Positions 1 through 45,200 of a stretch of 64,000 nt of DNA are shown in pieces; the first letter of the stretch is position 1; the number at the start of each line of letters is the position of its first letter. Made by a program: the position numbers and the translations under genes. The notes under the pieces were generated by a model. The model was not told the DNA's origin. It made no database searches and saw only the letters and a list, made by a program, of their open reading frames with translations. This DNA comes from Pezizomycotina sp. ARF18 (taxonomy: Eukaryota; Ascomycota), in assembly GCA_002224055.1 (NCBI GenBank), contig AZLU01000064.1, positions 86,163-150,162 of the forward strand. The letters run 5' to 3'.

Positions 1-1066
1 ACTAGTATTTGCTGTGGCACTTCGCTTGATTAAGCTATAAGTATATGGCTTGGGGTCCTACACAAAGAAATGAAGAGAGATATCTCGATAAAGGGCTATT
101 TGATCCATCCCTAACGAAGGGGATTCCATCCCACAAAAGGAGCAACCGATAAATAATATCAAGACCATTTATTGTCACTCAGAGGCCCCTTCCTAACAGG
201 CTTATTGAAACTCGAGGGATTTCGTAATCGATCATAAATCGCGGAGGTCTGAAAGTGAACTCGCAGATTTGTAGCGTGTAGCTCTCTTATTTATCTTTGT
301 CCAATCTCTAGCCTAAAAATATATATATACATACATATTAACTCGCCATTCATTATTTTTATTTTATTTTTTTATTTTTTATTTTATTTATTTTTTTTTT
401 TGTCCAACGTCCTTAATTGCCGTATGGCCTGGAGTTCCTCCTCGATTGGAACTTAGAGGAGGCAGGGTCGATTTGCTCAGGGAAGATTGTTACTTAATTG
501 TTCTTCCACCATATAATTATCTATACCTATACAACTACTTCATATATACCAACTTACCTAAAGTACTAGTACCTATCATATACCTAGGTGCTCCATCCCT
601 GCAGACTTCATACAGAACGGTTATTTCGCTGAATGTATAAATGTGTATACATATACTTATGGTCTTAGGCCGTGTGCAAGAGAAAATCAAAAAAGATTTA
701 GCTTTGTTAGATATAGAAGAGAATCGCCTTTTTTTTTTTCTTTTTAACACAGCTATGCACTTAAAGCGCCTTTTAGAACTAGGTGGATACGTACTGCCCC
801 GTAGGCAGCCTTTTTCATACATCTTCGGACGATATTAATCGCTTAAAGCTTGTCAGGATGTATAGGTGGAGAGTACCTAGTGATCATTTGTCTCAGACGG
901 AAGTCGGGGGGAAGTCGGGGAGTTGAAAAAAAAAAAAAAAAATAAAGCTTCCCCCACTTTATTAAAACCTCTTCATGATCACTTCCACACAGTATTAGTG
1001 ATAGTACCCCGCTAGTTACCACTAACATACCATCTATCTCTGAGCATCGACGTTCAACAGTGTCAG
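1..1066. other. gene-free 5' stretch
   Basis: No coding region is supported here; open frames are under 100 codons and show no family motif. The sequence is AT-rich, with a T-rich tract around 350-403 and an A17 run at 926-942. A direct repeat of the form GGGAAGTCGGGGAG-like lies near 902-921. Confidence 0.6.
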
Positions 1067-1073
1067 TGACTCA
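1067..1073 (+). promoter_or_regulatory. GCN4/CPC1-type site TGACTCA (distal)
   Basis: A perfect TGACTCA lies about 755 bases upstream of the proposed rvt start. This is the consensus bound by the bZIP activators Gcn4 (yeast) and CPC1 (filamentous fungi) in general amino-acid control. A single 7-mer is weak evidence, but a second perfect copy lies at 1451. Function is inferred. Confidence 0.4.
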
Positions 1074-1395
1074 CGATACTTCACATTGATCTGCTATTGC
1101 TTCTTTTCTTTCTATTTTGTCTTCTGTCCTTTCTAGTACTACTATTCTAGTCGAAAGGACAAAAAAAGGGCTTAACTGTATATACATCCCTCTATCTCTG
1201 CTTTCAGGATTCACTCTTAACACCATTGTCCTACAAAACCCGCTATTACACAGCTTCAAAAAATCCTCAATTGACAAAGGGACGAAGTTGCTTGCTAGTT
1301 GCTTCTGCGCGGCGGACCTTAGTCCGGAGTATCTTCCCCGGAAGCTTCAAGCGCAGCAGAACTAGCTCCCAGGATTCACGCAAAAGCCTGATGTG

Positions 1396-1400
<5 letters not shown>

Positions 1401-1428
<28 letters not shown>
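1401..1428 (+). repeat. A28 homopolymer
   Basis: An uninterrupted run of 28 A lies between the two TGACTCA sites in the rvt upstream region. Runs of this kind recur across the window and here may act as a nucleosome-poor promoter element. That role is inference. Confidence 0.7.
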
Positions 1429-1431
<3 letters not shown>

Positions 1432-1450
1432 TTTGAGGTCTTTCTTTGTA

Positions 1451-1457
1451 TGACTCA
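1451..1457 (+). promoter_or_regulatory. GCN4/CPC1-type site TGACTCA (proximal)
   Basis: A second perfect TGACTCA, about 370 bases upstream of the rvt ATG at 1828 and just downstream of the A28 run. The position is typical for a fungal promoter element. With the copy at 1067 it suggests control by amino-acid starvation, which I recall being reported for the Neurospora rvt gene; I have not checked that. Confidence 0.45.
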
Positions 1458-1827
1458 ATCGTTCTTTTGAAATCCGGAGGCTCTTAATCTTTCTACTGGA
1501 TTCTGTCGTTTTGTACTGCGTCATTCTTTAGCTTTCTAACTTCTAGATATTTCAAATTTTGGGGTAGTTGGGGTTTCTATATAAACCTCACTTCCCTCCC
1601 CTCATCCGGAAGAAATGTTCAGAGCATCGATACCAATCTCTAGCAGACTCCTGCATATATGCAATAAATCACCTAGAAAATCAAAAACTATCGGTCCCAT
1701 TAACTTGGTCCCATAAATCACAACCATCTTCACCATCACGACTCCAAAAGTCGACATTTGCAAAGCTCATCTGCACCTCGCACTCTCATTACTCTACTGT
1801 AACTACATCTTCAGAAGTCACAGCAAC

Positions 1828-4595
1828 ATGGCTCCGGTAACAACAGCTCTAGCTCGGCTACAGCAGCCTTAGCGAGACCCTGCACGCTGTCACCTCCATC
1901 AAGCTCGGCGAACTCGCCCGCCAGAAGGACAGGCTTAACGAGCACTACACCCCAGTCCTCGAAAACCTACCCTCAAAGTCCTCCGAGAAGCTCAAGACCC
2001 TCTACGAAGCCCTCAGGAAGGCCAAGCGCCAAGAACATTGAGCTCAGCAGCGCCGAGGTTGACGTCTCGCAGGTTAAAAGCGTGCTCGCGGCGTCCGAAG
2101 CCGACCCTTCGATGGGGCCGAGGTGTACGAGACGCACTGCCGCGCCATAAATGCTGCGATCAGCAGGCGCAGAGGAAGTACGAGTACGCGTACTCTTCGG
2201 GAGCATTTTCAACGACTGGCTGAAGAGCGACGGCAAGACGGAGATGAACGAGTCCGAAGCTGCGAAGCCGATAGCCGCAAGTGAAGACGGCGAGGCGACC
2301 GAAGCGTATGAGGATACGGGCAGGCCGGAGCTGCAGAAGCAGAAGCAGTTCCTCGAAGCGACGATATTCGAGAAGCGCGAATCCGCGGACGCGGACGGTT
2401 GATACGCTACGTGGAAGCTCTGTTCCGTCGAATGAGCAGAAAAAGGTCGGTGCTGAGCCGAAGGATGGTTCGCTGGAGTGGATACGCCGCCGCTTGAAGG
2501 TCTTCGGCGATAAACTTCGCCAGGAAGAAGATATTAGCGTCAAGGACGTTAAGCAGAGCGTCCACAACCTTATGAGCGGAGATACGTTGTCCGACAGCAA
2601 GAGGGCGGCGTGCAAGGAGATCCTGCTGTCTGAGACTATCCTCTCCGAGATCGCCAACGTTCTCACATGACGCTGCGCAACATCGAAAACTGGGCCTGCC
2701 GCAGGACGAATCAACGTCAATTTCCGCCGCCAGCTGAACGGCAAGTACAGGGCATACCTCGATGCCGCCCTCATCGACGCCATCTTCCTGCAGCACGTTG
2801 GCGTCGCGTGGGTATCGAGCTTCGGTACGTGCTTTCGGTAGTTCTCACTTCCGAAGTCGGCTGGAAGAAGCCGAGGACCCTCTCGATGCCAGGAAGATTG
2901 AGCTGCGCAAGCAAATGCTCGGCGAGAGCCACTACGCCTCGAAAAGTCTCAGGCGTAAGAGGGAGGCTGAGTTCAGGGATCAGTTCTTCATGACGATGTG
3001 CCGGAAAACCTGTACGATTTCCGCAACTACAGGGAGGACGGCGCGGAGGAGTCTGATGACGAGGCGTACAGTCGTAAGAACCGCCGCGGTGGGAACAATA
3101 CCGCCGGGTACAAGGATGCGCGCGCCGGAGGTCAAGCAGCGGCTCCTGCAGAGAATCCTGTGCGACGTTCAGAAGACGCAGGCGATCGACCCGAAGGCGC
3201 CATGACTGTCGTGCACGTCGACCTCGAGCAGTACGGCCCGTCGATCTCCACGAGGTCATGCTGGCGCTCTGCGAGTTTGCCGTATCCAAGAGGAGTGGAT
3301 CACCTTCTTCAAGGCCTTCCTGAGCGTCCCCTCGAAGATGTCTGAGAACGAGGACCCGCGGATCAGGAAGTGCGGTGTTCCAATCAACCACAGCTTGAGT
3401 TCTATGCTCTCGGAGTACATTCTCTTCTTCCTTGAGGCGGCGGGAACCGCAAGACGGAAGGGAAGCTGCAGATGGTCAGGCTGCACGACGACTTTTGGTT
3501 CTGGTCGACGGACGAGAAGCTCTGCCAGACGGTTGGCAGACGCTGCGGGAGTTTGCCGACCTCGCAGGTCTCAACTGGAACGTCGAGAAGAGCGGAAGCG
3601 TCAAGATTACCTCGGATGCACTGAAGGAATCACCAGGGCGCGAAACCGCTACCGCAGTCGCCCGTCAAGTGGGGTTTCCTGTGCCTCCACGGCGACGGTA
3701 TCTGGAGGATCAGCAGGGAAATGGTCGACGAGCACATCACAGAAATGAAGCGGCAGCTCAAGTCCCAGCGCAGCATCTAGGCTTCATCAAGGCCTATAAC
3801 CGGTACATGCTCTTCTTCGTCCAGAACTTCGCCGCCGCAGAACCCGCGCGCGCGTTCGGCCTGCAGCATGTCAACCAGGCCATCGCGGAGCTGAACTACA
3901 TCCACGCCAACTTGTTCTCCGACGCCAGCGTCTTCGAGGAAGTCCGCGGCTTGATCCGGGACAAGTTCCCGAACAACAAGGAGCACCACATCCTCGACTC
4001 GTGGATTTACTCCCCATGGCGCTCGGCGCCTCGGCGTGAAAAACTACATGCTCGACCTGCATGCCTACAGGAAAGCTACGAGCGGAGAAGAACTCGTCCA
4101 GAAGGCTCACATTCGCAGACTGCGTCGAGGCGGACAAGAAGGCCTACGAACGCTTGAAAAAGACGTGGGACGAGCGCCTCGAGTACCCCAAGATCGACCA
4201 CCTCATACCCGAATCCGACTACGAAAACGTCAAGACGATCTACGGCACCACCAAGCGCAAGCCGTTCTTCATGACCTTCGACGAGTACATCCTCGGAAGG
4301 GAGACGTACGCGGGTAACTGGTGGTCAGAAGTATGGACAGGCTCGCCGCCGCACCCGCACCGGCCGAGCCCGTCGCTCCGGAGAAGGTGAGGAGGAATCT
4401 GCGCGCCGATTCGAGCGAGATTAAACCGCTGCACAGGGACTGGGACAGCAACAATTGCTACTGGCAGTGGATGCTGAGCCTCTACGGCCCGCAACTGCTC
4501 GACGAGTTTGGCCGCTTCGACTTTTTGGATAAGAAGCTGATCCCGCTGGCATGATCGACTCGTTTAACAGCAAGAAGATCAAGTGGGACCAGTAA
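1828..4595 (+). CDS. rvt: rvt, domesticated cellular reverse-transcriptase gene (frameshifted copy)
   Basis: Member of the single-copy rvt class of reverse-transcriptase-related cellular genes known from fungi, rotifers and some bacteria; these are not mobile elements and their biological role is unsettled. The start at 1828 follows a purine-rich context (CAACATGGC) and leads into a charged, probably coiled-coil N-terminus (LSETLHAVTSIKLGEL, QKDRLNEHY). RT motifs are visible: motif A VHVDLEQYGPSI with Asp codon 3220-3222; motif B CGVPINHSLSSMLSEY near 3370; motif C RLHDDFWFW with Asp codons 3487-3492. All three catalytic aspartates are present. Downstream are GDGIWRISREMV and FMTFDEYI. The last codons read KKIKWDQ before TAA at 4593. 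The length, about 920 codons, is plausible for the fungal class. At least a dozen single-base indels break the frame, for example a short T run near 2212 and a C run near 3250, while conserved blocks continue across them. I favour sequence errors over a decayed gene, because the motifs are intact. Flanks carry no LTR or endonuclease. Confidence 0.82.
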
Positions 4596-4682
4596 TTCAT
4601 ACATCTACTAAGAATGGTATCATGGAGGAGGAGTGAAGTCGATACGTCTTCTCAATAGGCGTTGTATATTATCATTTGCATC

Positions 4683-4760
4683 TTTTTTTTTTTTTTTTTT
4701 TTTTAGGGGTTTTCATTGCATCTCTACACTAGCAAAAGAAGGAGTTTGGGGGGGGGGGGG
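4683..4760 (+). repeat. T22 run followed by G13 run
   Basis: T22 occupies 4683-4704 and a run of 13 G occupies 4748-4760, about 90-165 bases after the rvt stop. No gene is seen from here to 5512. The T run could lie in the rvt 3' untranslated region. Confidence 0.6.
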
Positions 4761-5142
4761 AATAAAAGGGACGTCTTTGTGTATTTTGGAACAATTCCAC
4801 TCATAGAAAGAATAATCATGTATATTATTATTAGATACCAAACCACTCTCGTCGAAAGAACAGGGAGACCGAGGATATATTTAACGGAATATCGAGATCT
4901 CCACGTTTCAAAAAAGTAGAGCATCTACTTCTTGTAATATAATACTGTGCGAAAGAAAATGCGACGTGACTTGAATTTCGCCTTCATGGGATATAGAGCT
5001 GGAAAAGAAAGGGTATAATGATTGATAATGTGCTTGCAAGTGGTATACAGGACAAATTTTGGTCCGTTTCTCTTCTGACCTCCAGAGGACCCCCCTAGTT
5101 TAAAAGAAGGGTTCACGGCAGGTATTCCCTCATTCTGGTTAT

Positions 5143-5160
5143 TATATATATATATATATA
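5143..5160 (+). repeat. (TA)9 microsatellite
   Basis: Nine TA units in an AT-rich intergenic stretch. A T24 run lies further on at 5292-5315. Nothing else is recognisable between 4761 and 5512. Confidence 0.8.
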
Positions 5161-5512
5161 TCTGATTTTCTGCACAGGTGAGAAGACATTTCGTAGAGAG
5201 CCATCAACGAAAATTACATATATACTTCATATTAATACTGAAATTTATTTATTTTTACCTTTCTAACTATTAATACATTTCTTCAAGCTTATTTTTTTTT
5301 TTTTTTTTTTTTTTTGTTTTCATTTCATTTCATTTCTTTTCTTTCCTTCTTCAAGTCCAAGATGGCGCTAAATTAGCTTCTAACTTTGTTTCGTTTCGAT
5401 CACCGCACGTCCAATACCGCACCAATCCTCCGATCATGACGTGGTTTCGGAGGAGATTTAGCTTCAAGGTTCATGTAAACCATTTTCAACCCTCCGCTTC
5501 AACCAAGAAACG

Positions 5513-5668
5513 GCCGTTGTCGTATAATGGTTAGTACACCACGGTAAATACCCCCGCCTCCTCCGTTCAATTCTCGGATCGTGCAATTCGAATTCTAACA
5601 AATTATCCAGTTGTGGCAATCATCGATTGAAAACCGTGGCAATACAGGTTCGATTCCTGTCAACGGCA
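5513..5668 (+). tRNA. split tRNA-like gene, anticodon unresolved
   Basis: Acceptor strands GCCGTTG (5513-5519) and CAACGGC (5661-5667) pair perfectly over 7 bp, with discriminator A at 5668. The D arm is GTAT (5522-5525)/GTAC (5534-5537) around a GG-containing loop. The T arm is ACAGG-TTCGATT-CCTGT, and GGTTCGATTCC is a perfect B box. The anticodon-stem halves CCACG (5539-5543) and CGTGG (5635-5639) are separated by 91 nt instead of 7, implying an insert of about 84 nt. Read at the canonical intron position (after base 37), the anticodon would be AAA, which is very unusual. The halves extend to 7 bp (CCACGGT/ACCGTGG), so the loop cannot be assigned. The D arm resembles fungal His, Asp and Glu tRNAs. 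It may be an intron-bearing tRNA with a base error or a tRNA pseudogene; a Pol III-type T run follows. Confidence 0.6.
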
Positions 5669-5681
5669 TACTCGAATATGC

Positions 5682-5694
5682 TTTTTTTTTTTTT
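5682..5694 (+). terminator. RNA polymerase III T13 terminator
   Basis: Thirteen T residues begin 14 bases after the tRNA-like discriminator base. A run of four or more T close behind a tRNA is the usual Pol III stop signal. Because T runs are common in this window, the position rather than the length supports the call. Confidence 0.6.
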
Positions 5695-5757
5695 CTTCCT
5701 CGTTCGATTATATAGTTAAGAGATGTTAGGAGGAAATTCCTTCTCTCTTTTTGCTTC

Positions 5758-5834
5758 ATATATATTGGCCAGTCTGGGACCCTACGAAGTAGTGACTATA
5801 TATTGGCCTAGTATCCCCTCCGAAGTAGTATATA
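5758..5834 (+). repeat. imperfect tandem duplication, two copies of about 38 bp
   Basis: Two neighbouring copies each begin ATATATTGGCC and end CGAAGTAGT, with diverged centres. No coding content. Confidence 0.6.
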
Positions 5835-5840
5835 TTTATA

Positions 5841-5867
5841 TTTTTTTAAAAAAAAAAAAAAAAAAAA
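5841..5867. repeat. T7-A20 junction run
   Basis: A T run passes directly into a longer A run. The same T-to-A arrangement occurs at 20509, 27180, 56708 and 59934. Confidence 0.8.
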
Positions 5868-5869
5868 GA

Positions 5870-8800
5870 ATAGGGAAAAAGTAAAGCTAACACGAGCGAG
5901 GGTATTATTCTAGGAATAGCGTACGATCTTTTGCGCTGAGTGTTCAAGGAGAAATCGCGGTGCGCACCGTACTATCGTGGAATAGCAATCGTTTGGGGGC
6001 GCTCTCCGCTACCAATGTATACACACTATATGGCATTTAAAAGCCCTGTTGAGGATGAGTGCACAGGGTTGCAACAGCCAGCATATAAAGTACATTTTGG
6101 TTACTACTAACTTTTTAGCGAATCACTATAATGCAAGCGAGGCGCTTAAAGAGGGAATCAAGGACGTAGCGATCTACCCATAGTTTACGTAGTCACATTG
6201 CGTTTGATGCGGTACGAATATTTACTATAATTCTTCGTAGCGCCAGTTTTCCGATGCCTCTATAGAGAAGTGCATCAAAGGTCTAGCGTACATGAACACT
6301 CACACAAAACGTATGCACGTGTGATCCCCATTCTTCTTGAAAGTCCCATAAACCACTTAAAGTATGCTGGTATAGAGGGATAAACATGCTCAATAATGGT
6401 ATGATGCACTACTGGAATTGATATACCCTAACCATTCAGCCACTACGCGTAGCGAATGCAGACGCGACATAGACGTTTACTAGTACGTTATAAGTGGAGT
6501 TGACGTTCCTAGACCCATTACACAAAAGCAGCAATCACGATACGAGAATCTTCCTATCGGGTATCTGCCGAGAGCAGAGGCTGCTAACGACTTATATCTC
6601 TCGTATTGGAAGAGTTTATGTACACAAACTTCAGTATGCAGGGGAACGTAACTAGGATCCGTCCATGTGATATTTTGGAAGAAATAAGTAGCGCTTAATT
6701 AACCTTCGTTTGGAAGCCCTGGTATTAGACTGCCAGATCCACCGATGACTCCTCGAAATTATCGCGCAAGAAATGAGGAAAGTACAATATTTTTTAGGCT
6801 AAACTACACCGTAAATGCTAACGCGACAGTTATGGAAACGATTCCGGTTACAAGTTGAAAAAACTACCGCTCAATAGATGCTCAGGATGAAGGAGACTTA
6901 TATTATATAGCACACGCACACACACGCACACACAGACCGCTTAAACATATGTTTAGGATCAAGCATCGATCGATGCGAGATGCAAAGATATATCCCTGGA
7001 CTCTCCACACACCTTAACCAGCAAAAAAATCGCAGCGTACGGGCCGTATCCTCAAGGCTAATTTTTTCATATTTGAAATATTTATCCGATATCTTTCTGT
7101 TTCCCGCAGCAACAGTTGAAATGTACGCCCCACCCGCACATGATAAACGGTAAATGATCTACGGTCTATAACTTCTGGACTCTGTTTAGGATATTGCAGA
7201 ACCGAACCTCAAAAGAAGCATATACGTAGTTCGTGAATAACTAAGTTTTAAGGTATATGTATAGTGACTACAAATACCTAGTGGGACTTACACGGAATCG
7301 TACCATACGATACGAGACATTCACGACCGCTTCTCTAAGGCGTCTACATGAACGGATGATCTATTCTGGATCCATAGATCAATACGTATATTCTGAGAGC
7401 TACATAGAAAGGTAAAGAAACGAAAAAGAACCAGAATTGTGGCCAATATATATATATATATATATATAGCATATCGACCCGAAGTCACAGTTCTTTTATG
7501 TTTCTATTTTCTCGACCTTCCCAACTCGATTGTCTACTTCACACCACAGCGGAGACATATATGAAGCCGGACGACTTTTATTTGCCCTAAAAGATTTCAA
7601 AATATGACAAATACCCTTTTCGAACGTCAACGCTGCGAAACAATTCATACGTTGTCGAGGCCCTGAAGGACCGATGAACCACGCAAATCGAGATAGGCTA
7701 TTACCAATGAGAACCAATGTGCATTTACAGGTATTAGAAGAGCTCGACTGGATTTATCCTGGCGCCACCGTTCCGTACCCTAATAAATAGGGGCCCTGTC
7801 ACCGCCAGATGCGACAGATAGCTAGCTATGCTATGTCATGCTGTGCTATCAGCCCATCGTTGTGGTCTGTGACTCCGGCCTGAAAGCTACATAGCCCTCT
7901 CATAAGTGCGAAAGCATCCGCAGTAATCATTTAAAAAGAATATATGTACCCTATCAGTCTCGGTTTACGCTTTCGCCCATTTCGACCTAACTCGATAAGG
8001 AGGCAGACTGCTACTCTCGCTACTAAATGAAGCAGAAGCCATAATACAAATAAATTTGTTTTTTGAATCAATATTATCCACGCACAAACTATGACTTGTA
8101 GCCCACGATATTGTACGATCATACTATCCGCATGAATTGGACATTACACTGTTACATGCGTCAGGTGATTACAACGCTAGGTGGAACATAAAGCTCTGCC
8201 ATTCTCCGAAGCTTCACGTATGAAGTGCATATATTTCCGTTCATACATGAGTCGCGATCTAAGAGATCGTTCAACATGAACGACAACAATATACACGACG
8301 CCTGGAAAGCTTAGTCAATGCAGCATGTAATTTGTCAGAATCGAAGAAAGAGATAAGGCACCAGACTGCTTAGGTCAAGTAGGCTACCATTACGTATCAG
8401 GAATATATCGAGCGTTTGTAGTGAGAGGCGAATAAGCATCGAGGGCTCCGTTAAAGCGCATGTACATATATCAGTTATGAGTTGAACAATCCAATCGCCA
8501 AAACTCACCAGTAGCTGATTTGAATGTTATACCGGTAATCCTAATACTCAGCTGATCTCGTGAAACCTTTTCACCGATTCCTTGATCGATCCTTCAAAAT
8601 TGTATTCATGTATGTAGCTTCCTCAGCTAATTCTTAAGCAATTACCCAGTAAAGTTGAATAGTGCACTAGTCTCGAGAACGATCAGGGTATTGTAGATAT
8701 CTGGCGACATATGGTCTTTGAGATTTGAGGCCCCTCTTTTTTCTGTTTTGTGAATCAAGTATCGAGCGTTAGCTGTTGGTGATGCTTTTTAGTGGTTTCT

Positions 8801-8890
8801 AACATATCACGATTGTTGAACTTCAGGAAATTCAAACTCCCAACAACCCGTTTCGTTTTCTAAGACAAACAAATAAGAAAATAAAATTGC
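5870..8890. other. gene-free AT-rich block with RIP-like dinucleotide bias
   Basis: No open frame above about 75 codons and no family motif on either strand over 3 kb. A hand count of the 60 bases from 6181 gives 9 TA against about 6 AT, and 5 CA+TG against 9 AC+GT, in the direction expected after repeat-induced point mutation, whereas coding sequence at 42301 gives 7 CA+TG against 5 AC+GT. CG is not depleted. Simple repeats inside are a CA-type repeat with G interruptions at 6911-6934 and alternating AT at 7446-7468. Likely decayed repeat DNA; the original element is not recognisable. Confidence 0.45.
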
Positions 8891-10979
8891 TAAATAAAAA
8901 TGATTGCATTCGTTTCTTTCTCTTTTCTTTTTGGTCTATGTATTGTTTTTCTTTTGGAGAAAATTCCTTCTCAATCATTCCACGCCAGCTTTTCACACCT
9001 TACTACCAGACCATGCAGCCGCACTTTGATTGTTGAACTTTCGCCGTCTGATGTTGTACGCCCCGTTGACAAGTCAGAGGAAGCATGGGTGAGGGGTTGA
9101 AATTCCAAGACTGCGGTGCCACGAGGCCCAAGAGACATTGCGGCGGGACTGCGGCGGGACATACCGCACGGGGGATCTGCCAAAAAAACGTCATGAGACA
9201 GCGCACAAATCCCGCTTCTTGTGTTCCGTGATACAAAACGCATCTCAACGTACGGAGATCCGGGAGCCGCCCTGTTGAATCCTTTGTGTCTCCCGAGAAC
9301 CGACGATATCCCCTCAAGCCCTTCATTGCTCAATTATGGATCCCAATTGACGGAAAGAAGATGGACGCGTGGTTCCGAAAGCAGTCGTTAAGTCTGTTGA
9401 CGGCCATTTTTTTTTTTTTCGATCTTACAAAAAACGGCTTTGTATCGGCGTTATACGGTCTCGGGAGTCACTCGCCTAAATGGGCCGTGGCGCTCTAATG
9501 GACGGCCACGTATCACGGGGATGGGATTCGACGGGCAAAAATAGTAAGGGAAATAGCAATTGAACAAAGGGAATATCCTTACTGACAATCCATTTTGTGG
9601 TCTACACTTTCTTTATGAATTTCTACTGGGTTTCTGGGCCATTTGGATTGATTTGAAGATGACCTGATTCCCTGGCTTTCAACCTTCCCATCGGATAGGC
9701 TGGCCCAGGTTGTTCTCCAAAAGGGCGAAAATAACCAACGAGAGGCTGCATATACCTTGCATTAGCTTCCCCAACTGCCAGCTAGCATGTTGTGGGAAAA
9801 GGGAAAAAAGCAACGAACTTCCCAGTCTGAACTCAACGAACCAGAGCGGCGATATTTACGATCTCCATATCGATAAGATTCTGCCATTTTCAATCAATCG
9901 GAGTAAGAACAATATCGCTTGAGCCCATGTGGTTTTTGAGCGTCTTTCTGCTATCGTCAAATTCAGCCCCAGAGGGGGATTTCTGAGCAATTTTTAATAT
10001 CGCTCTTGCTGACAGTTTAAGAAGCCTAGTCGTTTCATTCATATTAATGCCTCTATATCTACGATTGACAAGATGTGTCCAGCAGAGCAGATAATTGGCA
10101 CTCCTGGGGGTGTCCCACACGACTCAGGAACCTCAAAACTGTTACTAAATAGAGATTCGATTACCTATAGGAATATCTATCTGTACGAATACTGTACACT
10201 GAGCTGGTAGATTGCCTAGTACAGAAAATAATCTAGACCCACAGCGTACTACTTGCATTGCAAGCAAGGTAAGTACAATAATCGAATGTCGTTAGTATAA
10301 CGACAGTTAGCATGCCTATTCTTTTCTGGCATTTATTCCATGCAGTGTATCTGGCGGCATTTCTGTGGACAAGGTCAGACCTTACCTTTTTCTTACATGG
10401 TTCATTGCCAGCCAACGCGACGCCAGAGCTGTATATCGCCGTGGCATTGCGTTTAGAGACGATCGAGTAGTTTCTTTTCTTTCCTTTTCTTTCCTTTTGT
10501 TCTCCCTTGATTGATCAATGATCCGCAGTGTGAGGGGTTCTCTACCATCGTGTACTTCCAGTTGTCCAAATTATATAAGACTCCTCCCGCGTGGGAGGAG
10601 TATCCGTTATCTCCAATCCCTCACGAGATACATCTACATTTCGCTTCCGACAAAACTTCTGAAAAAACCCAAGGCTACTTCAAGTCAGCTGCAGTAACTC
10701 TTTTTAGCTCTTACTCCACGTTTCTCAACTCCATTGCTCAATTGCAAGGTATACTGCTTTTGCCGTCGCATACGCTGTCTCAAACCTACTTGGTGAGCTC
10801 TCTTTGTTCTTTGCCTTCCCGTCTATTAAATTTTTCATATGATCATGAAGAAAACCGGTGTACTGACGATTTTTTAAATTACCTTCAAGCTTGAATCGGA
10901 GCTCCACGTAGTTAAGCTACCCCATATTTCAAAAACTCAAAAATCATCTATATATACCTCCTGTCGTAGCCCTTCAACC
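8891..10979. other. gene-poor stretch, nothing recognised
   Basis: Base composition is more balanced than in the preceding block and several open frames reach 100-127 codons (for example 8971-9333 on the minus strand and 10511-10894 on the plus strand). None shows a domain, repeat or fungal family motif I recognise. A 10-bp direct duplication (GCGGCGGGAC type) sits at 9139-9161 and a perfect GC-rich hairpin at 10580-10601. A pyrimidine tract around 10470-10500 could belong to a promoter. Confidence 0.4.
10580..10601. repeat. perfect 9-bp hairpin, loop GCGT
   Basis: ACTCCTCCC pairs with GGGAGGAGT across the 4-nt loop GCGT. It lies about 400 bases upstream of the small membrane-protein gene at 10980. 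No downstream T run makes a Pol III terminator reading likely. Function unknown. Confidence 0.7.
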
Positions 10980-12190: not shown

Positions 12191-13509
12191 TTACCGCTTC
12201 CTAACTTCCATTCTCTGACCTCTTCCATCTTTACCAAAGACGAAAGCTCCCCAATTTGCGCCGACCTTCTTTGCCGTTTCTTCCAGCGTCCATTCACGAA
12301 CCTTGCTTACGAGCACTACTATGCCAGCTAAATATCCCTCCATACGCTCGCCAGCCGCATGCAAATCACTCTCAACCAACAATCTATCCTCCGGTACATT
12401 CTTGAGTACCTCGAGAAATTTATCTCCGTACCGTGAATTGACGGCCGTGCTGAAAGAAAAGAAGACCTCGCACGGATGCGCCTCGTTCGTCCACTGCCTC
12501 AAAAACGGCGGAGAAGCAGAGAAAGAATGTAGACATACCCGCGGCGGAAATGGAAACGGTCCCTTTCTCCGCTTCCTCTTCTTCTTGACGTTGCTGTGAT
12601 TTTCTTCGTTTTCGTCTTCGTCGGAAGTTGATTCGTCGCCTTGGTAGTCGTACGGACCCCGCTTCTTAGTGCGCTTCGATACGACCTCGCGCTCGTAGCC
12701 TTTCCATAGCTCTTGAAATACTTCCAGCAGCACGCCGTGCGCACCGACGCCGTGCACGCTAACGGGTCTGTTTAGCGCTCCTGCGAGGCGTAGCTGTGCT
12801 TCCAGCAGCCGTTTTTGGTGCGCTGGTTGGACTTTGTACGGTGATAGCATCTTCGGCTTCTCGCCATCTTCGTGTTCTCCTTCCGCATCGTTATCGCCCT
12901 TATCTTCTTTGCGGCCCGATTGATCGCCCTCCAGATCCTCAGAAAAGCAATCCGCCCTCCACCCCGAGGGTCTTTCGGTAGTCGGAACGTCTTATCAAGC
13001 CCTACTTCCCCCACCAATGCGCTATGAAACTCCTCCAGGTACGCTTTCGTCTCCGCTATCAGCACCGACAGCGGCTTCGGTCGGTAGCTGCTCTACGAAC
13101 TCGTCCGGCGGACACGGCGTAAGCACAGCAGTGTAGTGTTCCTTCTTACTCTTCGCTTCCTTTCCTTTCCCTTCCATTTCTCTCCGCCTATTATATGAGT
13201 GATGTAGTACTCCTCCAGCGAATCGGGTAGGTCGTCCGCGATCATATGTGAAACACGGGTGCCAGCCGAAGCTGGGCACGACCTTGCAGCCTGTGCCTTC
13301 GGAAGATTTGTCGATGCCGTGCTCTCGTGCGAGATCGGCGACGCGGTGTTGGTCCCACGCGCGCGTCGCCATGACGGTTAGCGTCCGCGCGTTCATGGAC
13401 GGGATGGTATGGAGGTGGTGGGGTGTCGGTGGGTGGCAGTGGGCGTCGTGTATGCCAGGTCCCATATTTCCGGTGGTAGGGAAGCTGTGTCCTGGATCTC
13501 TTCCTCCAT
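12191..13509 (-). CDS. scn1: TatD-family metal-dependent hydrolase, Cut9-interacting Scn1 type
   Basis: TatD proteins are TIM-barrel metallo-hydrolases. The fungal branch includes Scn1, found in fission yeast as a partner of the APC/C subunit Cut9. I chose the ATG at 13509 (MEEEIQDT) because it leads directly into the metal-binding HDAHCH, reached after one indel near 13460. Further signature blocks follow: FGWHPCF, the Glu motif LVGEVGLD, the first barrel His in PVSVHGV, the second in CLHSFSASP, and the catalytic Asp in [12 protein letters not shown]. The C-terminus WGAFVFG matches the fungal branch. A charged insert ([15 protein letters not shown], then KKKRKRRKG) sits between the two His motifs and may carry a nuclear localisation signal. 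At least three frames are needed. Family call is firm; orthology to Scn1 is likely. Confidence 0.82.
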
Positions 13510-27727: not shown

Positions 27728-29595
27728 TTAATCATGGGACTTTGTGGCCTCCTGCACGGCTAGCTTTGCCTTCTCCAACTCGACAGCCTTCTGCAAACCG
27801 CTGACGACGTCGTTAAATTGCTCCCACCCGTCTAGGTAGACGTGGTGACCGGCTCCCTTTATCGTCCCGATCTTCGCTTTCCTCCGGCGGCGTTGACCTT
27901 ATCCACGGCAGCCTTTCCGGCCTTTCCGTCCATCCAGTCGTTCTCGCCGTACAGGAACAGCATCTCGACGTTCTTCTCGACCTTTTCGATCCTCCGGATC
28001 AGGGGGTCGCGAGCATAGGCACCCGGTGCGAGTAGGTACGCCAGAGCATACTCTCCGGATCCCCGCTGGCGGAAGAGGAGTACGCGTACGTGTGTAGCGC
28101 CTGCGCCTCGGCGCTGGGGAGCATCGAAAACCGCCGCGACGTCCAGCCCGACGTCAGCCTGGGGCCCAGCGGACCGGACCACCGCACCAGCGAGAACGGC
28201 GAGATGTTAGCGTCCCACAGGTACGTCAACCATCCCGGCATCGGCCTCCGCGGCGGCGGCGTGCTCGTACCCGCTACGTTCGACGGCGGCGTCGACGTGC
28301 CCGACCTCGTCGAGACAGACTGATCGTCGTTGAACTCGCGGCTGACGGCTGCCATTTCGCCGGAAACGTCGGAATGTCCGAATTGACGGCGTACGGATCC
28401 TCGGGGATACCGACGGGCGAGGCGAGGATGAGCTTCTCGATGCGTCCGGGGTACTTGAGGGCGTAGCAGACGGCGAGGTAGCCGCCCAGCGAGTGGCCCA
28501 GGAGCGTGAACCTGTCGAGCCCGCGCTTCTTGCGCCACTCCTCGAGGGAGTCTATGAAGAAGTCCTCCGCTTCCGTACCTTGGCCATCTTCTCCGTGGCT
28601 TTTATCTTGAACGAAGGGCGGGCGGAACGGCCCATGCCCAGCAGGTCGAGGGCGTACAGCGACCATCCGGGCCGCTTCGATAGCGCGTCGAAGTTTTTGT
28701 AGAAGAAACCGAGGCCGGCGCCGTAGCCGTGGACGATAACTAGGTTGTTGGGGGAGGGGTTGCTGCCGTAGCTCGTCCTAGTGATGGAGAATTCGTTCAG
28801 GTAGTGCTTCGGCTTGGGGAGGGGAACCTCGAGTGACGCGCACACCCGGTCATCGTCAGTTGTGAGGTGGGATACGGTGGCGGCGGGTTCGGTAAGCTCC
28901 GTGTGATCTTGCTTCCTGTGGCATTTGGTGGTGTGGTGGTGGAATCGTGGTGGAGGCCGAAGTGCGGATCGTGGTGGAGTAAAAAGGGATGAATTGGAGG
29001 ACGTTGGCTTCTGCTACCGCGGGTGAAACGGAAGACCACTGAGTAAATAGGGATCAACGTGTTAGCGCTTAGGAAACAAAAAAGGAATAAACTATTATCC
29101 CTGTTCTATGCATGAAATTTTGTGTTTTCAAAAAAAAAAAGCTGTAATTGGAAAGAAAAACCGTACCCATTGCGAGAAACCCTCCTTGTACGAAAGCGGG
29201 AAGAGGTTACTTGGAAGCTTTGGCCTCTCGTCCTTTGCTGCTGCCGCAACTTCTTTTTGCCTCTGCCTGGCCAGCGGACTCTGGCCGGAATCAGGGAGAC
29301 TGACGTCTTCGGTGCTCGAAGCCATCTCTCTATGATAACCTCTCCTGAGAAGAGCGTGTGCGAAAGGGTGAGGGTGGTTGTTTAGGTCGTGTGGTGAAGA
29401 ATTCGAGACTGGTAACTCGAGTGGTATTGCAGCTGTAGCTGCTGCAACGGTGGCGGTCGAAGCTGTGATCGATGAAGCGGTCGAGTAGAGAAGAGTGTGA
29501 ATCCAAGGTGACGAAGCCGACGATAACCTGCAAATATTCTGTGATGGCACCGCAAGAGCGGGCGTGAAAGATAGAGGTAAGGTGAATGGACGCAA
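27728..29595 (-). CDS. cld1: Cld1-like mitochondrial alpha/beta hydrolase (ABHD4/5 family), two exons, frameshifted
   Basis: Fungal relative of yeast Cld1, the cardiolipin-specific phospholipase of mitochondria. Exon 1 (29595-29167) begins MRPFTLPLSFTPALAVPSQ with Arg, Ser and Ala but few acids, as in a mitochondrial presequence, and ends FPLSYKEGFSQW. A phase-0 intron (29166-29039, donor GTACGG, acceptor CTCAG) joins it to WSSVSPAVAEANVLQFIPF. The hydrolase domain shows HGYGAGLGFFYKNFDAL, DLLGMGRSARPSF, the nucleophile elbow LLGHSLGGYLAV (Ser codon 28490-28492), FLYGENDWMDG near the acid residue, and catalytic His in GAGHHVYLDGWEQF. The C-terminus reads VQEATKSHD before TAA at 27728. Several single-base indels split the second exon into at least four frames, yet the nucleophile, acid-region and His motifs are all present. 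Expected role: deacylation of cardiolipin for remodelling. Confidence 0.8.
29039..29166 (-). other. spliceosomal intron of the Cld1-like gene
   Basis: 128 nt, donor GTACGG and acceptor TTTACTCAG on the minus strand. Splicing joins SQW to WSS and restores a family-conserved FSQWW motif, which is the reason for choosing this pair. Confidence 0.75.
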
Positions 29596-39224: not shown

Positions 39225-39365
39225 AATTTATCCGGTGGTTAGCATTTGCTTGGTCCCTTTAATAAGTGTTTTTTACGAAATTTACACATCTCCAAAAAAA
39301 AACTCTCCCAGAATTCTCAAACGACCCTTTCCGCCGGGACCACTTTTGATGGGACGAGGGTCACG

Positions 39366-41116
39366 ATGACGGCGACACCCGAACAGAAAACGACTCTATC
39401 TCCACGGTCCCATCGTACCCGCTCCTCCTCATCCTCCGCTTCTGCTGCTGCTGCTGCTGCCGCCGCCGCCGCTTCCTTGTCCTCCTCTGGCAGCTCTCCC
39501 ACGCCTCCGACTCGTCCCTCTCCAGCATCAGCAATAGACCAGCTCATCAAAGGCCACCCTGACCCAACCTCCCAAACAGCGCAGAATGCCTCGGCGCAGG
39601 TCCAGCAACCGTCGATAACGACAACAGGTGCTACTCCCCCGCCTTCACCACCGTCCGCTACCTCCCAACAACAACCTCCATCCTCTGCCACAGCCAGCCA
39701 CGCACCGGGCACGGCTCCGGCCCCTCCAAAAACCCGCTCGAAACGCACCCCACATCCCGCCGACGATTTACCTGAACCTCCTGATCCTCGAAGCCTCCCT
39801 GCGCTCGCAGTACCTGAAACTACTCCTCCGCAAGAGAAAGTACACCGTTTCCTGCTGATACTTACGCTATGGACGTCCTACTTCTTCTACGCCGTATACG
39901 TCGTCGGCCCTTCGCCGTACTCGTTCGTCTCGACGTTCCAGAAGTTAGGTTTACTAGGAGGTATCGTTACGGCATTACTATTCTGGATGAGCGGGCTGTA
40001 CGCGAAGACGATGATATGGCCGCGGCGGTTCATCACGAACGCGAAACAAAGGTCTCCGAAATTTCAACGTGAAGCTGGTCATCGTTAAAGGAGGGTTTAA
40101 AGAGAGGATGGAGGGTTGGAAGGAGGTTTTCGTACCGAAGCATCCGTTGGGTTGGAGGTACGGGTTGGGGATAAAGAAGCTACCGACGGAGCAGCTGCAG
40201 TTCCGGGTGGGCGGGCACGCGCATACGCCTTCGCTGACGGGCGGCGGGAGGTCGCGGCAGAATTCCGCGGCGAGCCTATTGCGCCGACCTACGCCGCCGC
40301 TGCAGAGCGCCGTGGAGCTGCTCATGCCGCACGCGCTCACGTCCAGTACGAATAACAGCCGACCCACTCACCGTTCTATCTTCGATAACGAGTGCCGGTG
40401 CAGGACTAGGGGGCCGGTCGCGGTCGCAGTCGCTTTCAAGGAACGCGGAGCCGACGTACCAGTACGACCCGGACGACTTCCTCCCTTCGGGAGCGCACGT
40501 CAAGCTCGTAATCCTCGCAAAGAACTTCTCCGCTGACTTCCGCGAAGGTTGGGAGCTGTACAGGACCGAATACTGGGAGAAAGAAAACGAGCGGCGGGTG
40601 CGGGAAGTCGACGCCATCAAAACCGCTTTAGACGAGACGGCCACCTACCGCCGATGACGAGCACGGGTGTAGTAATGGGCGCGACGACCCCTTCGGGCGG
40701 TAACACGCCGATGAGGGCCGGACGAGCCGCGGTCAGTGGGTCGGCGGTAGTCCCGTGATGACCATGACCACGAGCAGCAGGAGGAACCGCAGCCGGTCGC
40801 GGAGCTCGAACGCGCCGGAGCAGCCCGAGTTTGGCATGAGCAGCATGGCTTCGTCGTCGATATCGGGTCCCGTAGGTCCGCGGGAGCCGGCGAAGAAGCG
40901 GGCGAGTCCGCTGCTGCGGATGCCGATCCCAGGGACGATTTGCCGGAGAGCTCTCACTCGACGCCCAGCGTATCTAGGAGGTCATCGCTGAAGGTTAATC
41001 CAAAGCGGCACTCGATGGGACCCGACGTCGCTAAGCGCGGCGGTGGTGGTGGCGAGCCTAAGAGGCTGTCGTTCCACGAAGGAAGCTTACCTAGCGGCAG
41101 TGGCCCCAGCCCGTAA
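39366..41116 (+). CDS. spo7: Spo7-like regulatory subunit of the Nem1-Spo7 phosphatase (frameshifted)
   Basis: Spo7 anchors and activates the phosphatase Nem1 in the nuclear/ER membrane; the complex dephosphorylates lipin (Pah1) and so controls phospholipid against triacylglycerol synthesis. From ATG 39366 there is a long Ser/Ala/Pro-rich disordered head, then the family core: YLNLLILEASLRSQYL, RKRKYTV, membrane helix LLILTLWTSYFFYAVYVV, second helix LGLLGGIVTALLFWMSG, then GLRNFNVKLVIVKGGF and HPLGWRYGLG. The C-terminal family block is HVKLVILAKNF followed by FREGWELYRTEYWEKENERR. A Ser/Gly-rich tail ends GSGPSP with TAA at 41114. Yeast Spo7 is far shorter; extended tails are usual in filamentous fungi. 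Frame changes near 39766 and 39850, then near 40052 and again in the tail, include both apparent insertions and deletions next to short homopolymers. Confidence 0.85.
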
Positions 41117-42140
41117 AGTCATACCAAAAGCATGATATATCGCGTTAAAATTCGCAAAAATGATTTTCAAGACATTGTCAAATAACGGCGTCAAAAGTCC
41201 ACATGATTACCATTAATTTCCATTTCTTTTTTTCCTCTATCATCGCTCGGATTGCTTCATAATTTTCAATTTTAGGACATTATTCGGGGGGAGTTTTTTT
41301 TTTATTTTTTTTTTTGTATCAATCTTATTTAAGTATTTTAGAGGCTCCTATTTTAACAACTACTAGTAGTAAATAGGTTACATTCAACACTAAGTATAAT
41401 ACGAAAGGCGGTATACTATTTTTGCTACATACGAATTTGCTGCGAGGCTTCAACATTGACAATATGGTAGACATTATGGCTACATATAGTCCAGTATGTA
41501 CTCTGATGACTAGACTGTGCAGTCTATCTGCCATGCGAGTTTTGGCGATATACCTGGTTTTTTACGTGGTCGCTTGCACATCCATCAGATTGCAGTTTCT
41601 CCAGGGTGTCACGAAGGAAACAGATGCAATCACGTTTTGCCAATAATACATTATACGTTGAGCCCTGAAACCCACTCAATGAAGGCAAAGGCGAACAGTA
41701 CTCTATGAAACAAAAATCGGCTTCGAAAACTTGATATTGAAGATATTGAATACAACCTGGTTTGCGCATGCAGTTGTTTCAGCATTTGAACTTTTCTATG
41801 GAAACTCGACATCTGCCGTCAAACACGATTATCCTCAAATAAATATTGAACATGTTTTACGATCGTTAGGATCGTGATATAGACCGACCAACCAGCACCA
41901 TACTCTATCAGAATGTAATTTATTTTGGGTGATTATTTTTTTATTTGTACTCTCGTTTTTATACATAAACATTCATCTTCGACTATATCCTTGGGCACTT
42001 TCTACTTTCCCTAGATTCTGCAGAGCATTGGAAAATTTCGAATTCGTTTTTCTTATTCTAAAATAGTTGGAATGAGGAGCAAGAGGCCGGGTCGCAATGG
42101 CGATAAAGAAATAGCGGCGGTATTCCTTTAAATATCTCAG
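41117..42140. other. intergenic between spo7 and the protease gene
   Basis: AT-rich, with frames under 82 codons and no motif. It probably contains the spo7 3' untranslated region and the protease promoter. Confidence 0.5.
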
Positions 42141-42241
42141 GTCCGACGACGGCGGGGCCTAGCGGTAGCGGACGAACACCGCTTAACGGTTTTAATGGCG
42201 GCAGTGGTCCACGCTCGCCTCTATGTCGCTCTACGACTCGC

Positions 42242-45200
42242 ATGAACAGGGACATCCGCGCAGAGCTGCGCGCGGTACGGTCCGGCGAAGTTCAACGGAA
42301 GAATACGCACGAAGCCAAAGAGAAAGGAAGCAAAGAGGAAACAGAGCAAGTGGAAGTGGAAGACATACCTGTTGACATAGAAGACGGAGACGCAGAAGAG
42401 AGCGAAGAGCCTTTGTACGATCAGCGACCCAGTCTAAGGACTCATCTACGTACCAAAAAGCTACGAGAAGACAATGACGAACTTGACTCCCCAGTCTCCA
42501 TGTTTTCCAAGCGCCCTAAATCAAAGGTACCGAACAACGAATGGGAACGAGTCCCATACACCCATGACGATTTCCGACCTTCAAGGCGGCTACACGAGCA
42601 TTTCGGACTCGAACCGGATGACAGAGCAGCGACATACCTCGTCGCCGAAGAGGAGAAGCTGTACAACCAGCTCTGCCTGATCCCTCCGGACCTCGAGTCA
42701 AACCCGTACATCCAACGCGCGAAACACTGCTTCGATGAAGTCCGGCTGGACGTCCTGAATCTCCTCCGAACAGAAGAAAAATACCAGAACTGCGGATATG
42801 CTCTCCTCTTCTGCGAGTTTGCGTGTTTTTCTTCGATGAGAGACGGACAGAACGGTGCCTGTCTATACCTCATGAGCGACTGCGAGCATCTGAAGAAGTT
42901 ACTACACGATGTGCGAGGTATCGTCTCGGGATATGCGTACGGGAGGCACCTCGATGTTATAGTGCAGAGGGGTACGCCGACGTTATACGGTATGAGAAAT
43001 GCCGGCAGGAAGATCAGAAATCGTATGTCAGCTTTGCTCGGGCGGAGACCGAGGTTCGAGGCAGTGTTTGAGGATTTCGGTGAGGTCTTCGAAAATGCAC
43101 CAGAGGTCCGCGGTTTTAATGCTTCGTTGTACAACCATGCGCCATCGAGCATCGCTAGGTCGACTGGCGGTCGGTTATCAAGCGAGGCAGAAGAGCATTT
43201 CGAGGACGGGGCATCCCTAAGTGATCGCGAAACCACTGCGGAGTATACATCAATCCACAATGACGCGAAGGAATATGATACTGAAGTAGATATCAAAGCC
43301 CTATCCGCCAATGATCCCGAGCATGTCGAGTATACACCCTATGATGTATATGACGACATCGATGACGTTCTGGCCGATCCTGATGCTTCCATGTTCGTAC
43401 ACTTTCCGGCAGGAGATGATGGGTCAGTGTTTGACTCCGATCACGATAACGATCTGGTGTACCCTGCTGAAGATGAAGACGACGATGCCGCTCCCGAAGT
43501 CACGATCAGGTCAGGAAATGATGCCCATATAAGCTCGAACGAAAGCCTCTTCGAGTTCCCGCGCGCTGGTCTGCCTTTCGAAATATACGACGAGAACGAA
43601 GAAAATGAGCCACTCGAGTTCCCAACGCCAGCATACGTTCCCAGCGGTTATTCGGACAAAGAGAACATTCCTCCGCCGCAAACACCCCCTTCGCGAACCG
43701 TACGACCGAATTCATCACCACCCTCGCTACGTGCGCATATAACAACGCTGAGAAAAGGCAGCCTCCAGGAGCCTTCGCTGCTCAAACAACCGAAGGCTAC
43801 AGCCACTGCTACCAAAAAAGCAACAAAATCCGAAGCGAATTATTTCACCGAGTTCCGCGACAGCATCATCAAGACGGACCGGTACTGCAGCTACAACCGC
43901 ATCGACCGCGGGTTCCATTACGGCCTTCGGTACATCTCCCACCTCCCCGTTCCGTCGAGCACCGAGGGTGTCTTAACAGACTACCATAAACGTCCGAACA
44001 TCGGCGAATCCATCAGCCACGGGGACGACGACGACAGCTGCGGAACTTTAGGCGGCTACCTCGTTGACGACGAAACCGGAGAGCAATACGTCCTTACCGC
44101 GTTTCACGTCGTAAACACAGACGTAGAGCTTAGTCGGCCGGTTATAGACGGCGTAAAGAATAGGCAGAGAGTCGTTGCTCCGGCGATAGTAGACTTTCAA
44201 AGTAACCTGGACGGCGTAGAGCACCACAGACTGGGCATCACGGGTGAATTTTATAGAAGCGTTGATTACCGTGACAAAGCTACAGCATCAGAATTGAAAA
44301 GGAGTTGATCAAAATCGAGGACGATATAGAGAAATATCGGGAGGCGAAAACGATATATTTCGGTGAGATAGTGGCATCGGCGTGGAGAAATCGCCGTCGC
44401 GTTAATGACGAGCGTTGTCTGATAGATCTTGCGCTGATCAGGCCAGATCCTGGTGAGTAAATATCTCGTTCATGGAGCTCAGCGCTTTCTTGCTCCATGA
44501 TGCATTGTCATATCATAACAATCTCCATCGATGCTATTTTTTTAATCTCTTTTCTAACAACCTTTTAGGTCGAATCGGGCGGAACACTTTCACCTATTTA
44601 GGTCCCGACAACGCCCACGCAGCACGATACCGTTTAGAAGCCGACGGCTGGGCCAAGCCAACCCTAGGAGCTAAAGTTCTCAAGGTTGGAAGATCGACAG
44701 GTTTGACGAAAGGCACAATAATATCATCAAATGCGGATGTCCGACTCCACGTCAGTAACGACGACAAGGAAACGACGGGTACCGGTCGTGTTCACCAGTA
44801 TTATTGGGAGGTCCAATGTCAAATTGCCACGGCGGGAAGTGAGCCTTGGTTCTCTCAAAGTGGTGATTCGTAAGTTTTTTTTTTTTCTTATCCTGATTTT
44901 TATGATGCCCTCCGGCTAACTATTTGTTTTTTTTTTTTTTTTTTTTTCCTTGTATTGCAGAGGAGCTTTCATACTCAAAGCTCCAACGAGGAAGGGAATG
45001 GCTAACTGGGAAGAGCAGATGCCGCTTGTACCTGTTCCCGCACCCGTTGTTGGCCTCCTATTTGGAGGAGCGGACAGTGTCGAAGGTGTAAGTTTCCTCC
45101 ACATCCAACATACCCAAGTTCACAAAATTAGACTGGCAGTAAGCTGACCAAGAGGATGCTTATTCAGGTCCACCTCACCTTTTTCAACAGCTCCGCAGTC

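Follow-up and report, generated by a model that had tools for sequence, protein, structure and literature searches.

The window, the stretch of 64,000 nucleotides that we analysed, carries on its + strand a gene predicted to encode a cellular reverse transcriptase (RT) of the rvt type (Table 1). An earlier reading made without database searches (the sequence-only reading) had placed its bounds correctly, with an ATG start codon at 1828 and a TAA stop codon at 4593-4595. Motifs A, B and C and the catalytic aspartates, which that reading had named, were all located on the translation. Motifs A and C lie in frame 0 and motif B in frame 1, a splitting already implied by its expression 'joined frames'. 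The frame is broken in the assembled sequence: the protein can be read only by crossing 24 frame changes within 2765 bp, 17 of −1 and 7 of +1, which in a by-eye reading gives 924 residues. No stop codon occurs within the 25 pieces (924 codons).

Table 1. Features of the rvt gene, numbered from the first nucleotide of the window.
Feature	Position	Strand	Remarks
rvt gene	1828..4595	+	25 pieces in three frames, 24 frame changes, ~924 residues; RT_UG37 match
N-terminal piece (SSLSETLHAVTSIKLGEL...)	1859..2026	+	aligned to the bacterial rvt N-terminus (KLxEL...R)
Region before the RT core	2401..2667	+	best RT_UG37 stretch starts inside, at read-through residue 230
Conserved pre-insertion block FRRQLNGKYRAYLDAALIDAIFLQHVGVAW	2710..2811	+	RT motifs 1-2 by position
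Insertion between pre-insertion block and motif A	2812..3201	+	position and size of loop 2a
Motif A VHVDLEQ	3211..3231	+	frame 0; first catalytic Asp codon at 3220-3222
Motif B CGVPINHSLSSM	3371..3406	+	frame 1; GVPxxH
Motif C RLHDDFWFW	3478..3504	+	frame 0; catalytic Asp pair
Rest of palm and thumb-like region	3531..4080	+	GWQTLREF..LNWNVEKSGSVKIT; LPQ..W; GFIKAYNRYM..; W..P..LG..LG; thumb by position alone
C-terminal part, ending YW-W...YGPQLL-FG-F-FL...LIPL	4082..4592	+	aligned to the bacterial rvt C-terminus

The 25-piece reading was picked by eye out of the three frames and was settled once a paralogue on contig C55 had been seen; the read-through protein derived from it carries X at every break. 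A Viterbi path through codon usage, for which no homologue was used, placed 22 frame changes in the gene, and separate stop-to-stop fragments of the window matched the C55 locus in the same order (tblastn). We consider the reading to be beyond chance because of these ordered fragments, a match of the read-through protein to the PADLOC profile RT_UG37 (PDLC03776; 218 bits, E 4.2e-65) and its alignment with 12 intact bacterial genes.

Several regions of the predicted protein are shared with its relatives. The block preceding the insertion, in which motif 2 was assigned by position and not by structure, is identical to the paralogue at 22 of 31 residues (2719-2811). The insertion itself is about 127 residues long in the window gene; its paralogue has 126, and the range among 12 bacterial rvt proteins is 121-141. 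The available part of PMC5718144 describes a long insertion ahead of motif A (loop 2a) as a mark of rvt genes. Both fungal copies have an RT core with three catalytic aspartates; motif A of the paralogue reads IAHADIEKF, and its motif C (RLHDDFWFW) is the same as that of the window gene, with RxxDD found in all 12 of the bacterial rvt proteins examined. The usual form of RT motif B is GxPQG. Toward the C-terminus, positions 731-767 of RT_UG37 also matched 4444-4554 of the window gene.

Sequence comparisons support assignment of the window gene to rvt, a known family of cellular RTs. The sequence-only reading had proposed this identity, and it was borne out by a near-full-length match to RT_UG37 and the Chloroflexota proteins together with the insertion before motif A. 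The paralogue was matched by RT_UG37 as well. Other collections gave little. Pfam returned no match to the read-through protein at E ≤ 5, RVT_1 included, and none of 10 separate pieces of the window gene rose above its cut-off. For the read-through proteins NCBIfam gave no match and PHROGs gave one weak match alone (E 0.33), and apart from RT_UG37 PADLOC matched one member weakly to Drt3a (E 0.024). In the PDB nothing was found for one 80-residue piece, and a profile search there yielded two weak matches to retron-type RTs and one unrelated match.

RT_UG37 was detected at E ≤ 1e-20 in 15 of 400 Chloroflexota genomes, 12 of which contain a full-length and intact protein. None of 395 Bacteroidota genomes reached E ≤ 1e-20, and as no match of any kind was registered in them, absence from this group is not implied. 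Weak cross-matches of other RTs to the profile, scoring 24-51 bits, occurred in 3 of 12 genomes. The fungal proteins and all 12 bacterial proteins could be aligned nearly end to end, and hhalign of the two fungal proteins against 8 of the 12 full-length Chloroflexota proteins gave a probability of 100 and an E of 3.1e-44 over 760 columns at 22% identity. A palm-core tree split the two fungal and 12 bacterial rvt proteins from six other RTs with support of 95/87, on an alignment that was fitted to the rvt profile and favours the rvt grouping; this tree was built without L203 and without three RTs of the same genome that offered too few columns (L002, L003 and L004). We infer that UG37 in the PADLOC naming is bacterial rvt, taking as the basis a family that spans both domains and a Chloroflexota host. 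According to the portion of PMC5718144 available, rvt is the only RT group with both bacterial and eukaryotic members.

An RT core could also be left over from a retrotransposon, be it a LINE, an LTR element or another type, and RVT_1 matches do occur elsewhere in this genome. However, neither RVT_1 nor any other Pfam family matched the read-through protein or its pieces, whereas bacterial RT_UG37 was matched over nearly its full length. Pfam found no integrase, RNase H or endonuclease in the window gene and nothing above cut-off in 10 flanking ORFs (538 to 7753), and the only repeats in 1-9000 were A/T runs and low-complexity DNA, none of them LTR-like. The earlier statement that no LTR, integrase or endonuclease lies nearby thus held for the gene, these ORFs and this interval. 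Together with the finding of two genome loci among the best candidates scored, these data make a retrotransposon origin extremely unlikely.

Searches were also made beyond the genome. No tblastn match to 571 residues was found among 72,556 plasmids, and viral contigs searched with the bacterial rvt alignment yielded no relative. The exact motif-C pattern found nothing in the genome or the viral contigs; a looser pattern gave 59 and 92 stretches, on whose ORFs the rvt profile did no better than E 0.065.

Some other features of the window and genome were recorded. The rDNA of this genome reads like that of an ascomycete fungus. A tRNA-Phe (GAA) gene at 5513-5668 of the window contains an 82-base intron and was seen only when introns were allowed (ARAGORN); fungal tRNA introns are usually shorter. 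Further along the window lie, as ordinary neighbours, matches to a TatD-type DNase (12191-12991), an alpha/beta hydrolase (28274-28777) and a Spo7-like protein (39243-40088). RVT_1 matches in open frames elsewhere comprise 498 codons on contig C132 (L003) and 328 codons on contig C209 (L004), both with motifs that we take to be Gypsy-like. Contig C50, of 231 kb, contains RT ORFs (L001, L002), one of which is open for 672 codons under table 4 (TGA = Trp); the contig is therefore perhaps mitochondrial, and unusually large if so.

The genome contains a second rvt gene on contig C55, at 2789-5819 of locus L008 (C55:138300-148200). In a copy search that scores the best candidates only, the same two places, the window on C64 and the C55 locus, came up with the gene DNA, with two protein pieces and with the RT_UG37 profile; RT_UG37 gave four matches, which fall in these two loci. 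The paralogue is 42% identical to the window protein over the alignment and is likewise broken, into 27 pieces whose 26 junctions comprise 9 of −1, 13 of +1 and 4 in frame; at one point two pieces are separated by an in-frame stop. Gaps of 123, 85 and 74 bases between its pieces are three putative introns, and a frame change obscures where the second of them ends on its 3' side. At none of these three sites could the window gene accommodate an intron. Beside the C55 gene, we read a frame at 8626-9901 of the locus as resembling an aspartic protease; its piece 8626-9144 matched no Pfam family.

The sequence-only reading had described rvt genes as single-copy and non-mobile, and the literature likewise calls them single-copy. 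A second, diverged rvt gene removes the first part of this description for the present genome; the two loci, at 42% identity, are low in copy number and old, and do not amount to a mobile family. Multiple copies per genome had been named in advance as evidence against an rvt gene; taken to the letter two loci are multiple copies, but a mobile family does not follow from them.

Nine conserved blocks, which were picked for good alignment, are identical between the window gene and its paralogue at 149 of 256 residues. Differences at the three codon positions numbered 91, 62 and 146, and the NG86 method gave a dN of 0.38 and a dS of 2.14, the latter being saturated. From these data we conclude that purifying selection has acted on the rvt protein since the paralogues split, a result that has no bearing on the most recent past. 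The two genes could be old working paralogues with divided tasks, the intronless window copy having arisen when a spliced rvt transcript was copied back into DNA, possibly by rvt or a similar RT. We consider this combined history unlikely. If it were true, an rvt gene would have spread by retroposition and then been kept.

The breaks in the window gene are likely to be errors of the assembly (46.4 Mb in 408 contigs), because HSP70 and other genes of the same assembly break alike and the pieces contain no stop. In five HSP70 genes 21 frame changes, of which 17 are −1, were counted at junctions too tight for an intron; the count used 35 of 38 matched pieces and left out two on C44 and one on C10. 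One such gene (C49:53036-54818) is split into seven pieces with all gaps between them at or below 31 bases. As breakage of this kind is found across the assembly and affects conserved genes at frequent intervals, its gene calls will miss many proteins.

The density of breaks was compared with a Viterbi yardstick trained on HSP70 pieces and on a 733-codon ORF of the same window, with the proviso that undetected introns would raise the counts of the controls. One change was scored per 126 bp in the window rvt gene, 125 in the paralogue, 146 in the HSP70 gene on C70, 223 in that on C49, 145 in the ABHD-like and 144 in the Spo7-like stretch of the window, and 260 and 663 in two aspartic-protease-like stretches beside the C55 gene. 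The 733-codon ORF is unbroken and yet scored five changes, one per 440, indicating that the Viterbi counts run high. This frame (42107-44308) has no Pfam match at E ≤ 0.001 and lies in a window that contains other, broken genes.

These comparisons also bear on whether the window copy is a true pseudogene, in which case the changes would exist in the organism and either the C55 copy alone or neither copy would work. The 24 changes in so short a gene, the intact 733-codon frame, by which not every frame in the window is damaged, and the position of the two rvt genes as the most broken of nine stretches on this one yardstick are all consistent with decay. So is the lack of a tie between breaks and homopolymers, as runs of 3 or more were present in 7 of 24 junction windows compared to 9.1 expected. 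However, neutral decay would not be expected to leave zero internal stops in 924 codons beside 24 frame changes, all catalytic residues are retained, HSP70 genes of this assembly are also fragmented and the ABHD-like and Spo7-like stretches are broken at nearly equal density. A pseudogene is therefore unlikely in our judgement, and the frame is likely to be intact in the living organism.

With respect to the kind of assembly error, simple homopolymer undercalling was not supported as the cause, homopolymers not being enriched at the junctions. The changes lean toward −1 in the window gene and toward +1 in the paralogue, so that neither a uniform −1 signature nor any other single one emerges.

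Taken together, we think it probable that the window gene, like its paralogue, is an rvt gene of a domesticated, non-mobile, RT-like kind, that its breaks are assembly errors, that its enzyme is whole, and that this enzyme is a stress-induced non-templated polymerase. The enzyme would be made whole in the organism. To judge from what has been published for rvt proteins of other species, it would add nucleotides without copying a template, and polymerisation might start on its own protein. Protein priming reportedly appears in the title of a 2018 paper on bacterial rvt by Yushenova and Arkhipova. Failure of translation or of the amino-acid supply may induce the gene, and its product may help the cell to survive that stress. 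The same activity is our best guess here because the catalytic residues are all kept in both copies.

What rvt genes copy had been called unresolved in the sequence-only reading. This has been partly overtaken, as meeting reports, so far as their available text goes, describe terminal-transferase activity or non-templated polymerisation, and link rvt to the tolerance of stress (PMC3520738, PMC10680173). Given non-templated polymerisation, rvt proteins may copy nothing.

As PADLOC describes RT_UG37 as DRT, rvt might instead be an antiviral polymerase like the bacterial UG-type defence RTs, and the DNA synthesised by Abi-type UG enzymes is protein-primed and untemplated according to the part of PMC12632851 available. 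The DRT label is a matter of filing, however, and among the literature matches listed, none of which concerns RTs, no defence test of UG37 was found. Six related Chloroflexota loci (L223-L228) have a fixed gene neighbourhood in common, which the other six of the 12 do not have; two loci, L221 and L222, have one neighbour family in common. Since shared neighbours, apart from this last family, are those of close relatives, no fixed partner gene appears in these loci. Within the fungal window no Rfam family reached its gathering score, and the rvt phenotypes published in the accessible portions of PMC3520738 and PMC10680173 concern translation and nutrient stress. We consider an antiviral role very unlikely, and a polymerase acting in stress remains our reading of the two fungal genes.

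The window gene and its paralogue are members of the known rvt family and the kind is not new. Their interest is modest and lies in the two diverged paralogues, one of them intronless, and in the UG37 link. The job of rvt is only partly known, and two diverged copies with putative introns in one only offer a natural comparison. Through the UG37 link, intact bacterial proteins about 800 residues long become available for comparison with the fungal one. Genes such as this one are hidden by unpolished assemblies, and Pfam RVT_1 is blind to the window gene.

The window gene was also compared to known systems. With retron-type and group II intron-like RTs (PDB 5hhj), palm motifs A-C align weakly and without significance (E 0.49), and motif B of these RTs, unlike that of the window gene, is of the GTPQG type. 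The bacterial RT_UG37 proteins of Chloroflexota (L209-L220; 786-836 aa) resemble the fungal proteins in the N-terminal region, the insertion of 121-141 residues, the motif A Asp, a GxPxxR/H motif B, RxxDD and the C-terminal YW-W...YG block. They differ in motif C, where RxxDD is followed by I or L compared to RLHDDFWFW in the fungal proteins, and the latter have an extra stretch in their C-terminal part; the hhalign identity of 22% is a further measure of the distance. The rvt genes were reportedly presented by Gladyshev and Arkhipova in 2011 as cellular reverse-transcriptase-related genes. Common to these and the window gene are the RT core aspartates, a large insertion preceding motif A, a low copy number and the finding of no endonuclease or integrase, and here too bacterial and eukaryotic members were observed. 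Unlike the rvt genes described, the present genome has two diverged copies, one without the putative introns of the other, and the frame is broken in the assembly. The RVT protein of Neurospora crassa, also a fungal rvt, has terminal-transferase activity, is non-essential for growth and is strongly induced under inhibition of protein synthesis, as described in the available part of PMC3520738.
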